From Pyrobaculum sp. WP30 (GTDB taxonomy: Archaea > Thermoproteota > Thermoprotei > Thermoproteales > Thermoproteaceae): a stretch of 64,000 nt of DNA. Shown piece by piece: positions 29,649 through 33,673 of the stretch (the first letter of the stretch is position 1; every line of letters begins with the position of its first letter). A program made the translations under genes and the position numbers. The notes below the pieces were generated by a model. It was not told the origin of the DNA. It did not search any database and saw only the letters and a program-made list of their open reading frames with translations. The stretch is from positions 1,178,001-1,242,000 of the forward strand of contig CP012158.1 in the NCBI GenBank assembly GCA_001189275.1, in the 5' to 3' direction.

Positions 29649-30620
29649 GACCTCGGCGCCTTGGTCGGTTATGTGGACATCGATTTCCAGCCTGACGCCG
29701 AATTTGCCGGGGAGGTAGACGCCGGGCTCAATGGTGAACACTGCGCCAGGCTTCAACACGTCTCTTGAGCCGGGAGAGACGTCGGGCGCCTCGTGTATCT
29801 CCAGCCCCAACCCGTGTCCAGTCCGGTGGATGAAGTGGGGGCCGTAGCCCCTCGTCTCTATAACGGAGCGGGCGGCTCTGTCCACCTCCCCCGCCGACGT
29901 GCCCGGCCTGGCGCTCTGCAAGGCGGCGCGTTGCGCCTCCTCCACTGCGGCGTATGCCGCCTTGTACTCCTCTGGCGCCTCGCCGTAGAAGAACGACTTC
30001 GTCAAGTCGCCGAAGTAGCCCTGGTACGCCGCCGAGACGTCTATCACCACGGCGTCTCCCCTTCTGAGCCTCTTGTCCGTGGGCTCTTGATGGGGCAGGG
30101 CGGTGTTGGGGCCGAACTGGACGAGGATAGGCCCCGGCGAGAGCCCCGCCTCGTACAGCGCTAGGTATATCCTCGCCGCCGCCTGCCTCTCCGAGACGCC
30201 GGGCGCGAGCTCCAGCCCCTCCACAGCTCTCCGGATAGCCGACGCGGCCGCCCTTATCCTCTCCACCTCGTCCCTCCTTTTGACCATGCGCCACTCGCGG
30301 AAGATGTGGTCGCCCAGCCTGTACTCCGCCCCGGGGAACGCCCTCTTGACTATCTCGAAGTGGCGGAGGGCGGTGCCTCCGTCTATGTAGATCACAGAGG
30401 CGTCGCATCCGGCCGCGGACTGCCTAAGCGCCTCGGCGGGGTCCTCGCCGTCGCGGTAGCTGTACACCTCTCCGGGCACCCTCCCGGCGTCGAGGGCCGG
30501 CACCACGGCGGCTAGGCGGTCGCCGCACCTCACGGCGGCTTTAAACCGCTCATACGTCTCGAGCCAGACCCCCGTGAGATACGCGAAGTTCACCGTGGTG
30601 GTGGCGATTATCATATCCAC
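29643..30620 (-). CDS. M24 family metallopeptidase (Xaa-Pro peptidase type)
   Basis: 325 residues. The C-terminal pita-bread domain carries the metal ligands: VVIDVSAAYQGYFGD (two Asp), FIHRTGHGLGLEIHE (His), VFTIEPGVY (Glu) and FGVRLEID (Glu). The N-terminal 110 residues are the smaller creatinase-like domain. It is the aminopeptidase P/prolidase type that removes or cleaves X-Pro bonds in the cytoplasm. It overlaps the JAMM gene by 10 nt and belongs to the NikR-JAMM-M24 operon. Confidence 0.93.
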   Translation of the reverse strand: MDMIIATTTVNFAYLTGVWLETYERFKAAVRCGDRLAAVVPALDAGRVPGEVYSYRDGEDPAEALRQSAAGCDASVIYIDGGTALRHFEIVKRAFPGAEYRLGDHIFREWRMVKRRDEVERIRAAASAIRRAVEGLELAPGVSERQAAARIYLALYEAGLSPGPILVQFGPNTALPHQEPTDKRLRRGDAVVIDVSAAYQGYFGDLTKSFFYGEAPEEYKAAYAAVEEAQRAALQSARPGTSAGEVDRAARSVIETRGYGPHFIHRTGHGLGLEIHEAPDVSPGSRDVLKPGAVFTIEPGVYLPGKFGVRLEIDVHITDQGAEVL

Positions 30621-30988
30621 TCCAGGTGCACCGGCGCGGCCCTCCCCTCTTTAAACCTCCACGCGGCGGTTTCCCAAGTGTAGACGTTGGAGATGACCCA
30701 GGCGACGGGCCACAGCCTCATGTATTTAATGTCGATGGGACTGGGGGCAGGTGGGCCCGGGTGAGTGTGGAATATAGCCACTAGCTCCAGCCCAGACGCC
30801 TCCGCGTCGGTGATGGCTCTATACATCTCCTCTGGGTCAAGCAGAAAGGCTGTGGGGCTGTTCAGCACGTTGCGGAGCCAGCTCCAGGTTAAAACAGTTT
30901 CTTCCCTGCCGAAGAGGAGGGCGGGGCACTCGGCGTCTGGGGAACACCTCCGTCTCGCCTCTTCTAGGAGCCTTGCAGGTATTTTCAC
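30611..30988 (-). CDS. JAMM/MPN domain metalloprotease
   Basis: 125 residues. The zinc site HTHPGPPAPSPID (H-x-H-x(7)-S-x-x-D) is at about 74-86, with the accompanying catalytic Glu likely in the early strands (ALLFGREE). This small stand-alone JAMM protein resembles archaeal desampylases that cleave SAMP conjugates and MoaD-type precursors. It overlaps nikR by 4 nt (ATGA) and the M24 gene by 10 nt. The target could be a ubiquitin-like protein such as the MoaD-like one at 35119. Confidence 0.85.
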   Translation of the reverse strand: MKIPARLLEEARRRCSPDAECPALLFGREETVLTWSWLRNVLNSPTAFLLDPEEMYRAITDAEASGLELVAIFHTHPGPPAPSPIDIKYMRLWPVAWVISNVYTWETAAWRFKEGRAAPVHLEWI

Positions 30989-31353
30989 AGAAGCGGCACG
31001 TAACGCGCGAGCTTAGCCCTTTTGGCTACCTCAAGCGTAAGCTTCTCGATTTGGTCGCCGTCGCCTTTAACCACCACGATTGTTAGGCACCTCCCCTCGA
31101 CGTGTAGGTGCGTGTAGGCCACTATGTGGGTCCTGTTTTCCTCTATGGCGTCGCCCACGTCGGAAAAGGCGTCTGTGACCGCCATAACGACGCCGAGGCA
31201 CTGATGGCCGGGCTTCTTGTGGTCTTTCTGCATCTCTAGATACTCCTGGAGGGCGGCGGCGACCACCTCGCTCCGGGTGGCGCCGGTCTCTTGTGAAATC
31301 TTGTCAATGGCCTCTGCGAGCTCCTGCGGGAGCGAGACGCCGAAGCGCTTCAC
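30985..31353 (-). CDS. NikR-type ribbon-helix-helix regulator
   Basis: 122 residues. An N-terminal ribbon-helix-helix (KRFGVSLPQELAEAIDKI to TRSEVVAAALQEYLE, about 2-40) and an ACT-like C-terminal domain. The nickel region has NRTHIVAYTHLHVEGRC, with His76, His82, His84 and Cys89; this keeps the H-x-H...C motif of NikR (H87, H89, C95 in E. coli) but with one residue fewer before the Cys. It probably senses a metal and represses neighbouring genes. First gene of the operon; starts 46 nt from the divergent riboflavin synthase. Confidence 0.82.
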   Translation of the reverse strand: MKRFGVSLPQELAEAIDKISQETGATRSEVVAAALQEYLEMQKDHKKPGHQCLGVVMAVTDAFSDVGDAIEENRTHIVAYTHLHVEGRCLTIVVVKGDGDQIEKLTLEVAKRAKLARYVPLL

Positions 31354-31398: not shown

Positions 31399-31857
31399 AT
31401 GGGCTGTATAGGCGTGGTTGATACCACCTTCGCCAGGGTAGACATGGGCGGCGTCGCCATTGAGGAGCTGAGGAGCTTGATGCCAAATGCCGTGGTTAAG
31501 AGGGTCACAGTCCCCGGCATTAAAAACACCGTGTGGGGCGCCTTGAGGCTGGTCAAGGACGGATGCGACGCGGTGATTGTGCTTGGGTGGGTGGGCCCCA
31601 CCCCGGTGGATAAATACAGCTACTTAGCCACTTCGGTAGGGCTTATGCAGTTGCAGATAGCCACCGGCGTGCTTGTACTCGACGTGACGGTCCACGAGGA
31701 GGAGGGCGGCGGCGACGAGAAGAAATTGAAGGAAATCGCCGTCGACAGGACGAGGAAGCACGTCTGGAACCTTGTCCAGATGCTGACGGGGGGGCTTGAG
31801 CGGTATGCGGGGAAGGGGCTGAGGCAGGGTTACCCCCACGCGGGGGAGATTACATAA
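31399..31857 (+). CDS. ribC: Archaeal riboflavin synthase
   Basis: 152 residues, too short for the bacterial enzyme but the length of the archaeal type. The sequence MGCIGVVDTTFARVDMG, with VPGIKNTVWGALRLV, VIVLGWVGPTPVDKYSYLATSVGLMQLQ and VTVHEEE, matches the archaeal lumazine synthase-like riboflavin synthase. It dismutates two 6,7-dimethyl-8-ribityllumazines to riboflavin. The ATG is 25 nt from the TATA-like TTTATATA (31369-31376). Next to nikR but divergent. Confidence 0.92.
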   Translation: MGCIGVVDTTFARVDMGGVAIEELRSLMPNAVVKRVTVPGIKNTVWGALRLVKDGCDAVIVLGWVGPTPVDKYSYLATSVGLMQLQIATGVLVLDVTVHEEEGGGDEKKLKEIAVDRTRKHVWNLVQMLTGGLERYAGKGLRQGYPHAGEIT

Positions 31858-32028
31858 AGTTTTGACAAATCTCAGATATATAACATATATAAAGTTTCTA
31901 TGTATAAATAAAGAGGATGCCGTGCTTCTCCAAAACTAATACTATTGTATTTTCCATTATTTTATTAATTATCTGCAGTTTTCGTTTTCCTAAGTAAATC
32001 TATTTAAACCTAAGCCAATTTAGTGCCA

Positions 32029-32090
32029 GGGCGGCTACGGCAACGCCACCCCCCGACGCCCCTCGCTGTTGCCGTAGTTCCGCCTTCTCT
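32029..32090 (+). ncRNA. Candidate structured RNA (long hairpin)
   Basis: A perfect 10-bp stem, CTACGGCAAC (32035-32044) with GTTGCCGTAG (32068-32077), extends after a 2-nt TT bulge into GGCGG/CCGCC (32030-32034/32080-32084): 15 pairs around a 23-nt C-rich loop. A TATA-like TATTTAAA (32001-32008) lies about 25 nt upstream and a pyrimidine run TTCTCTCT follows. This is a complete small transcription unit by layout. It is not a tRNA and has no obvious C/D boxes; a single-stem H/ACA-like RNA or an unknown RNA are possible. Confidence 0.55.
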
Positions 32091-32783
32091 CTAGAATAGT
32101 CTTGACAGCAGTACTGCAAGCACCCCACTTAGGAATATCCCGTCGAATACGCCGGCTCCTCCTATCGAGACGAAAGGCGGCCTATGTCTCAGCACCTTTT
32201 TCATGTTCAACACGTCGGCTCCAATTATCGTGCCGTAGACCGCAGTTATATACGTCGCCACGGGGCCGCCTCCCGCTATGAGGGCCGACAAGGCGGCTAT
32301 TATGGGCGGCGCTAGAGCCGGCGTAACTACGCCGACGTTGGGCACCACCCGGCTCACGGCGTAGATGAGGATAGACGCAACGGCCACCGCGGCTAGTAGG
32401 GCAGGGCTGAAGACGTGTGCCGCGAGGTATGTGGCTACGGCCAGCGGTACGGCGGCTCCCCCCACGTTTACGGCTATGTAGGACCTCTCCTCCTGGAAGA
32501 CGATGCGCGGTGTGGGGATGGGCATGCCGAACACCACCACGTAGTCCACCGCAGGCACATACTGCCTCCGAGATAGCGTGTGCACCACGACGTTTATGGG
32601 GCTGGTCGCGAGGCTGAGGAAGGTGACCGAGCTCCCGAGGAGCAGGGCGGCTATGGGATGCATGCCTACGGATCTCAACACGTCTACGAAGGAGAACATG
32701 AAGAAGGGGAGTAGCAAAACCGCCAGCCCCGCGTATAGTATCCCCAAGACGCCGTAGAAGGGGAACGCTATTATTATCCTCAT
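32091..32783 (-). CDS. DUF1614-type membrane protein
   Basis: 230 residues from ATG 32783. About six membrane segments, starting RIIIAFPFYGVLGILYAGLA. Features of the DUF1614 family are SPINVVVHTL, a loop with VVVFGMPIPTPRIVF and glycine-rich GGPVATYITAVYG and SIGGAGVFDGIFLSG near the end. The longer open frame upstream belongs to the PhoU gene in another frame; ATG 32783 overlaps its stop (ATGA). It may be membrane partner of the PhoU-type regulator. Confidence 0.75.
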   Translation of the reverse strand: MRIIIAFPFYGVLGILYAGLAVLLLPFFMFSFVDVLRSVGMHPIAALLLGSSVTFLSLATSPINVVVHTLSRRQYVPAVDYVVVFGMPIPTPRIVFQEERSYIAVNVGGAAVPLAVATYLAAHVFSPALLAAVAVASILIYAVSRVVPNVGVVTPALAPPIIAALSALIAGGGPVATYITAVYGTIIGADVLNMKKVLRHRPPFVSIGGAGVFDGIFLSGVLAVLLSRLF

Positions 32784-33673
32784 AGACGGGTTGCTTTTGA
32801 ATACGCGGCCTCCGCTATGTCTGCTGCGAAGCCCACTATGGAGGCGGCTTCGTGCATCGCCGCGGCGGCCTGGGGACATATCTGTTGCAGGGTTTCTCTA
32901 ACCAGGTCTGCGCGTTGCACCAGCACGGCCAGCGCCTTGTTCGCGTCGTTGCTGTAGAAGGCGTTGAAGGCGTCTTGCATGAAGCGGTACACCTTCTTGA
33001 AGACCTCCGTAGCCTCTGCGGCGCATTTTATCTCGTTTTGTAGGTAGTAGTTCGTGGCGCGGTCTATGGCGTCGCCTATATGTTCAAGGTTTTTTATCGT
33101 TATGACGTAGTCCACATAGTGTTCGGGTCTCTGGGCGATGTTCCTCTTCACCGTCCTGAGGGAGAAGAAGTAGAGCCTGTCAAGCTGGTCGTCCAGCCTC
33201 AGGATCTCCTCGGCTAAGTTGCGCCTCACTTGCGTAAGCATTTGTATAAATAGGGAAAACATGGCGTCTACCGTAGTGTACATACTCCGCACGGCCTCGT
33301 CGATGTTTATGTCCTCCCTAGTCACTATCCGAAGCTTCAGAACCCCGCCGACCTCCATCAAAACAACACCTGGAAGCTTGCCCTCTATCTTAGTCACCAC
33401 GGCCGAGATGTTTCTGGTCTCCACCTCCAGCTCGTCGACCCCCTCTATGTAATACGCTATGATGTCTCGGACGAGCTTCTCCACGTTGTCCCCCTTGATT
33501 TTCGCGCGCCTGACGCCGGCCGCCTCCGCCCCTGGAAATAGAGTGACCTTGTTTCTGTCTACGATGATGCGGACAGGCGAGCCGACCCCCAAGCCGTGTA
33601 GCTCTACCCACTCCTTGGGCAGAGTAATCCCAAAGGACCTCTCGCCTACCCTGATAATTCTCCTCATCTCCAT
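32780..33673 (-). CDS. PhoU-family regulator with N-terminal AbrB-like domain
   Basis: 297 residues. An N-terminal swapped-hairpin AbrB/SpoVT domain (RRIIRVGERSFGITLPKEWV, VGSPVRIIVDRNKVTLFP) is followed by PhoU-like helical bundle repeats (EEILRLDDQLDRLYFF, TIKNLEHIGDAIDRATNYYL, DAFNAFYSND). This domain combination is typical of archaeal PhoU relatives involved in phosphate signalling or metal binding, but no Pst transporter is in the window. Coupled to the DUF1614 gene by ATGA overlap. Confidence 0.85.
   Translation of the reverse strand: MEMRRIIRVGERSFGITLPKEWVELHGLGVGSPVRIIVDRNKVTLFPGAEAAGVRRAKIKGDNVEKLVRDIIAYYIEGVDELEVETRNISAVVTKIEGKLPGVVLMEVGGVLKLRIVTREDINIDEAVRSMYTTVDAMFSLFIQMLTQVRRNLAEEILRLDDQLDRLYFFSLRTVKRNIAQRPEHYVDYVITIKNLEHIGDAIDRATNYYLQNEIKCAAEATEVFKKVYRFMQDAFNAFYSNDANKALAVLVQRADLVRETLQQICPQAAAAMHEAASIVGFAADIAEAAYSKATRL

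Follow-up and report, generated by a model that had tools for sequence, protein, structure and literature searches.

The 64,000-nt stretch of the Pyrobaculum sp. WP30 genome analysed here (hereafter, the window) contains, between ribC and a convergent DUF1614 gene, a long hairpin preceded by a TATA box, and this locus raises the question of whether the hairpin belongs to one of its neighbours or is the product of an RNA gene of its own and, if the latter, on what such an RNA would act. As described in the original prediction, the 15-bp stem (5 + 10 bp) with its 2-nt bulge, the C-rich 23-nt loop, the TATA box TATTTAAA centred ~25 nt upstream of the stem and the pyrimidine run after CCGCC are all present (Table 1). 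On the plus strand the hairpin folds at -27.2 kcal/mol (z = -3.8), and none of 200 shuffled sequences equals it; the minus-strand fold is unremarkable (z = -1.06). The pyrimidine tail enters the DUF1614 stop codon (32091-32093, minus strand), as had been noticed. The hairpin had also been thought to occupy the whole gap after ribC, but this gap (31858-32090) measures 233 bp and the hairpin, promoter included, takes up only its last ~100 bp. The TATA spacing suggests a transcription start at ~32029, and promoter spacing and conservation together point to an end in the pyrimidine tract. The covariance models of Rfam 15 gave no match at the gathering score here and none up to E = 5 in 31850-32300, which agrees with the earlier view that no known class fits. 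We conclude that the hairpin is very probably the gene of a small regulatory RNA (sRNA) of heat-loving archaea.

Table 1 Features of the hairpin RNA locus and its neighbours (positions in the window)
Feature	Position	Strand	Evidence or partner
Small RNA, ~60 nt: hairpin and pyrimidine tail TTCTCTCT	32029..32092	+	Fold z = -3.8; covariance-model matches; syntenic copies in Thermoproteus-like genomes
sRNA promoter: AAGTAAATC (BRE position) and TATA box TATTTAAA at 32001-32008	31990..32008	+	Aligned copies
5' stem arm: GGCGG (lower) and CTACGGCAAC (upper)	32030..32044	+	Partners 32068-32077 and 32080-32084
Apical loop, 23 nt, C-rich, GCCACCCCCCGACGCCCCTCGCT	32045..32067	+	Mostly single-stranded in predicted fold
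Putative anti-target element CCCCCC-G-ACGCCCCTCGCTGT	32049..32069	+	Partner AUGGCGGGGGGCGU-GGGGGG at the AdoMetDC-family mRNA start, near 561545, G000:C1 minus strand
3' stem arm: GTTGCCGTAG, 2-nt bulge TT, CCGCC	32068..32084	+	Predicted fold
ribC, archaeal riboflavin synthase; conserved upstream neighbour of the sRNA gene	31399..31857	+	TIGR01506, E 9.4e-50
DUF1614 gene; convergent neighbour of the sRNA gene	32091..32783	-	PF07758, E 2.1e-46

A gene of the same layout (TATA box, ~20 nt, hairpin, pyrimidine tail) lies directly 3' of ribC in nine further genomes of the genus Pyrobaculum and in six Thermoproteus-like genomes, with one weak placement (G007) among these copies. A DNA search of the family recovered the hairpin in seven other Pyrobaculum genomes, and in all seven the promoter block AGAAATCTATTTAAAG or a close variant stands 19-21 nt before the stem. 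The spacer between promoter and stem, as well as the sequence upstream of the promoter, cannot be aligned among the Pyrobaculum copies. Promoter and hairpin have thus been kept at a fixed spacing while spacer and flanks have not been conserved, which argues for a short RNA gene that starts at the foot of the hairpin. The covariance search of Pyrobaculum genomes that had been proposed yielded matches in eight genomes (E 1e-12 to 1e-19) and a divergent copy at the same locus in a further one, G010 (E 1.4e-4), where two base pairs and the 2-nt bulge are replaced by one A-U pair to give an uninterrupted 12-bp stem. Searching G007, G008 and G011 with model R1 gave no convincing match; the G011 and G007 copies were located through synteny with ribC. 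A pattern scan of the contigs for the stem was too loose, with unrelated bacterial sequences among the matches listed.

Within Pyrobaculum proper the stem is invariant and therefore gives no covariation. In five Thermoproteus-like genomes (G012-G016) the ribC-DUF1614 locus carries a conserved AGAAAGCCATATATAG-type promoter followed after ~20 nt by AACGGGCGG ... CCGCCCGTATTT, and the upper stem varies with pairing kept (UUAGCC/GGCUAA in G014, AUACC/GGUAU in G015), so that the compensatory changes on which the original prediction had staked its hairpin do occur, in other species. The Thermoproteus-like loop is invariant and C-rich (CCCCGGCGTACCCCCC; CCCCGGCGAACCCCCC in G015), and part of it is predicted to be able to form an internal hairpin in G012 and G016. 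In G007 a matching string, CCCCACGCCCCCGC, follows the promoter 3' of ribC, and its stem differs, being short and unstable. No such hairpin was found at the ribC/DUF1614 locus of two genomes of a third genus (G017 and G018) or of more distant genera. The sRNA promoter of several species (L004, L007, L010) contains a palindrome, TTTCTAGAGAAA, that overlaps the BRE position and may be a regulator site.

The target of the RNA, the point that the original prediction missed, emerged from the Thermoproteus-like loop. When its complement was searched in those genomes, one near-match recurred besides the sRNA gene itself: ATGCGGGGGGACGCCGGGG, which is the very start, start codon included, of a gene of the AdoMet-decarboxylase (AdoMetDC) family (TIGR03330; speD/speH type) in four genomes. 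The Pyrobaculum ortholog begins otherwise (AUGGCGGGGGGCGUGGGGG / ATGGCGGGGGGCGTGGGGG), and the Pyrobaculum loops match that start. The literal complement of the Pyrobaculum loop (GGGAGGCGTGGG), used as a query, found only scattered, unconserved sites, the real site departing from it by a G-U pair. In the genome studied here the target gene (G000:C1 ~561180-561545, minus strand; L259:1489-1866, minus strand) lies ~650 kb from the sRNA gene (G000:C1 ~1210029), so that any pairing would be in trans. In G017 and G018, the third-genus genomes, the target gene has no G-rich start.

The target protein scores 141.5 bits against TIGR03330 (cut-off 75.65), and a second SpeD-family paralogue of the same genome scores 134.3 bits, also above the cut-off. 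Arginine decarboxylases are known among the SpeD homologues of archaea (PMC10407285); by sequence, the target is an AdoMetDC-family enzyme that may be either a true AdoMet decarboxylase or an arginine-decarboxylase paralogue. A TATA element stands ~25 nt before the target ATG; with this spacing, transcription should begin at the ATG or directly beside it, and the mRNA is thus probably leaderless. Directly before this TATA box there is a conserved block, GGGGGTTAA in Pyrobaculum and GGGGGTCAA in Thermoproteus-like genomes (L250-L254, L256, L259-L265), a candidate operator or special BRE.

In the genome studied here the predicted loop-mRNA duplex comprises 17 Watson-Crick and three G-U pairs with one bulged G, and duplexes with 14-17 Watson-Crick pairs can be drawn in 15 of 15 genomes; in P. 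islandicum-, P. oguniense- and P. aerophilum-type genomes the duplex begins exactly at the A of the AUG and runs for 20 pairs without a break, G-U pairs included. Same-genome duplexes have energies of -39 to -55 kcal/mol and cross-genus combinations mostly -26 to -40 kcal/mol; raw duplex energy alone is weak evidence, since strings rich in G or C find good partners in many sequences. When the mRNA piece was shuffled, 6 of 300 shuffles matched the longest uninterrupted run of this genome, and for the Thermoproteus-like pairs the uninterrupted run by itself was unexceptional.

Across the 15 genomes, five target positions show double compensatory changes (C-G/G-C at position 5; G-C/A-U/U-A at 11; C-G/U-A at 12, the change of G010; U-A/C-G at 14; G-C/C-G at 15), in duplex alignments that were placed by hand with bulges allowed and among related genomes that are not independent, so that covariation events are fewer than genomes; the energy matrix does not depend on the hand placement. 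Several further loop changes turn G-C into G-U. Between the two genera the target switched at four positions that were altered in step, and an A-U/U-A switch occurred within the Thermoproteus-like group. On this comparison of sequences, loop and target have very probably changed together during evolution, and the test by compensatory change thus extends from the stem to the loop and its mRNA.

The coding sequence of the target bears a corresponding mark. Codons 2, 3, 5 and 6 are identical in ten Pyrobaculum genomes and codon 4 differs only in G010, in which the loop has changed as well, whereas elsewhere in the gene not one of the 24 four-fold codons with an invariant amino acid is identical. 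For the Thermoproteus-like genes the contrast is 3/3 codons in the start region versus 0/33 elsewhere, and the chance probability of each contrast is ~2 in 10,000 or less (hypergeometric). The frozen synonymous stretch ends at the same point as the pairing. Pairing with the sRNA would explain why the N-terminal codons of the enzyme are frozen at synonymous sites.

We consider it likely that the element is the gene for a ~60-nt trans-acting antisense sRNA that masks the AUG of the target and represses the AdoMetDC-family enzyme. Such an RNA would be transcribed from its own TATA promoter, starting at the hairpin foot and ending in the pyrimidine tract; its rigid stem would present the single-stranded C-rich loop to the extreme 5' end of the probably leaderless mRNA, where the loop would pair with the start codon and the five to six codons that follow it, a pairing supported by complementarity and by inter-molecular covariation. 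Leaderless initiation needs a free 5' AUG, and a GC-rich duplex of 14-20 bp over it should block ribosome binding. With the AUG of a leaderless mRNA covered, the sRNA most likely represses translation of the enzyme. Both hairpin and duplex are predicted to form at 75-95 °C, weakly at 95 °C, a temperature at which one would expect assistance from cations, polyamines or proteins.

The main rival keeps the RNA and its target and reverses the outcome: the duplex would shield the leaderless 5' end from a 5'-3' exonuclease or from inhibitory structure and so raise enzyme output. The pairing data fit this equally. In the Thermoproteus-like target genes (L250-L255), moreover, a conserved C-run 4-10 nt before the ATG could, if transcribed, pair with the G-run just after the ATG and loop out the start codon, a hairpin that the sRNA could open. 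We nevertheless regard positive regulation as rather unlikely, because the duplex covers the very AUG that leaderless initiation needs free and because the TATA spacing, with a start at or next to the ATG, may leave the C-run untranscribed.

A C-rich loop might also serve many G-rich mRNAs, with the AdoMetDC-family mRNA as just one of them. Sites at -40 to -42 kcal/mol exist in the window, and the genome holds many sites with two to three mismatches. The exact target string occurs once in the genome, the next best site having two mismatches; when 7,994 segments of the 64-kb window were compared, none pairs as well apart from the locus of the sRNA itself (-46.9 versus -42.5), and the second SpeD-family paralogue pairs worse with the loop (-21 to -38 kcal/mol). 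That changes in the loop track this one mRNA, both between genera and within the Thermoproteus-like group, and that the synonymous sites of this one target are frozen, makes a broad regulator of this kind improbable.

As to the locus itself, the hairpin could be a terminator or 3' UTR structure of the DUF1614 gene, or a bidirectional terminator for ribC and DUF1614, and an antisense or terminator role for DUF1614 had been entertained in the original prediction. The hairpin directly abuts the DUF1614 stop codon and is stable on either strand. A counterexample is G011, which has a tRNA in place of the sRNA after DUF1614 (L186). From the target start of this genome, GGGGGGUCGCCGGGG, a loop CCCCGGCGANCCCCCC was predicted before the copy in this genome was found; on another contig, 3' of ribC, there is a promoter followed by a 15-bp hairpin (-34.9 kcal/mol) with the loop CCCCGGCGACCCCC, which forms 14 perfect pairs with the target, at a site that is also among the many unspecific matches of the predicted-loop search. 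A copy that follows ribC and does not lie beside DUF1614 speaks against both the terminator and the cis-antisense readings. Also against a terminator are the conserved promoter directed into the hairpin, the covariation of the loop with an unlinked mRNA, and the DUF1614 frame of G010 (L159 / L185), which lacks the usual stop and continues through the sRNA gene on the opposite strand; we hold this explanation to be very improbable.

An H/ACA-like pseudouridine guide, for which a pocket had been suggested as a check, is scarcely credible: the element shares with the Pyrobaculum RNAs sR201-sR210 (kink-turn, guide strands beside the stem, mainly rRNA targets; PMC4652768) its genus and its single small hairpin, but there is no kink-turn or K-loop, no tandem G-A motif in the aligned copies (by inspection), no guide strands, no two-sided pocket (1-2 variable nt 3', 0 nt 5') and no Rfam match. 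H/ACA guides have an ANA box 14-16 nt beyond the upper stem; several of the Pyrobaculum copies carry an ANA at 13-15 nt, which the stop and last codon of DUF1614 can account for, and the Thermoproteus-like copies have none.

Searching the literature, we came across no archaeal sRNA directed at an AdoMet decarboxylase and, in the accessible part, no description of the hairpin sRNA; the main small-RNA sequencing papers on Pyrobaculum lie outside this coverage, and the transcript may have been seen already. To our knowledge, convincing mRNA targets exist for only a few archaeal sRNAs, and none in Thermoproteales is backed by the evolution of both partners. Recognition of a target by a structured loop has a parallel in RNAI and CopA, the hairpin-loop antisense RNAs of plasmids; unlike the hairpin sRNA, these are cis-encoded, fully complementary to their targets and control replication.

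Among archaeal RNAs, Methanosarcina mazei sRNA162 pairs in trans with an mRNA and masks its translation start region, probably repressing translation (PMC3510493), as we propose, by predicted pairing, for the hairpin sRNA. It belongs to a methanogen and acts on different genes, and it uses an unstructured linker at the internal ribosome-binding site of a bicistronic mRNA, whereas here a hairpin loop would pair across the start codon of an mRNA that is probably leaderless, and loop and mRNA covary. The s479 RNA of Haloferax volcanii is likewise a trans-acting archaeal sRNA with a directly bound mRNA target (PMC8155600); it differs in its crRNA-like maturation by Cas6 and in its zinc-transport targets. 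The likeness to sRNA162 and s479 concerns the mode of action, none having been noticed in sequence. Pyrobaculum itself has cis-antisense sRNAs to fur, tpi and tfb that are conserved at the genus level (Bernick et al. 2012, as cited in PMC5867862). These are also conserved small RNAs of Pyrobaculum, but they lie opposite their targets, whereas the hairpin sRNA is encoded away from its target and its conservation reaches a second genus.

The proposed pair would provide, for hyperthermophiles, a specific sRNA and target that can be put to the test. The sRNA would act on polyamine synthesis, and would do so at the very beginning of an mRNA that is probably leaderless and offers no Shine-Dalgarno sequence to mask. 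Polyamine synthesis is regarded as central to life close to 100 °C, and long or branched polyamines stabilise RNA duplexes near the boiling point. It is conceivable, if unlikely, that a feedback loop operates here, in which products of the enzyme would favour formation of the sRNA-mRNA duplex and so turn off their own production, the RNA pair acting as a polyamine sensor.

Two further features of the neighbourhood were observed. A gene for a protein with MazE/AbrB and PhoU domains (window 32780-33673) overlaps the DUF1614 gene (minus strand) by 4 nt, which suggests that the two form one operon, possibly phosphate-related. Upstream of ribC, a small ribbon-helix-helix protein with a NikR-type C-terminal domain is encoded on the minus strand (window 30985-31353), and a gene for a JAB-domain protein (30611-30988) adjoins it.
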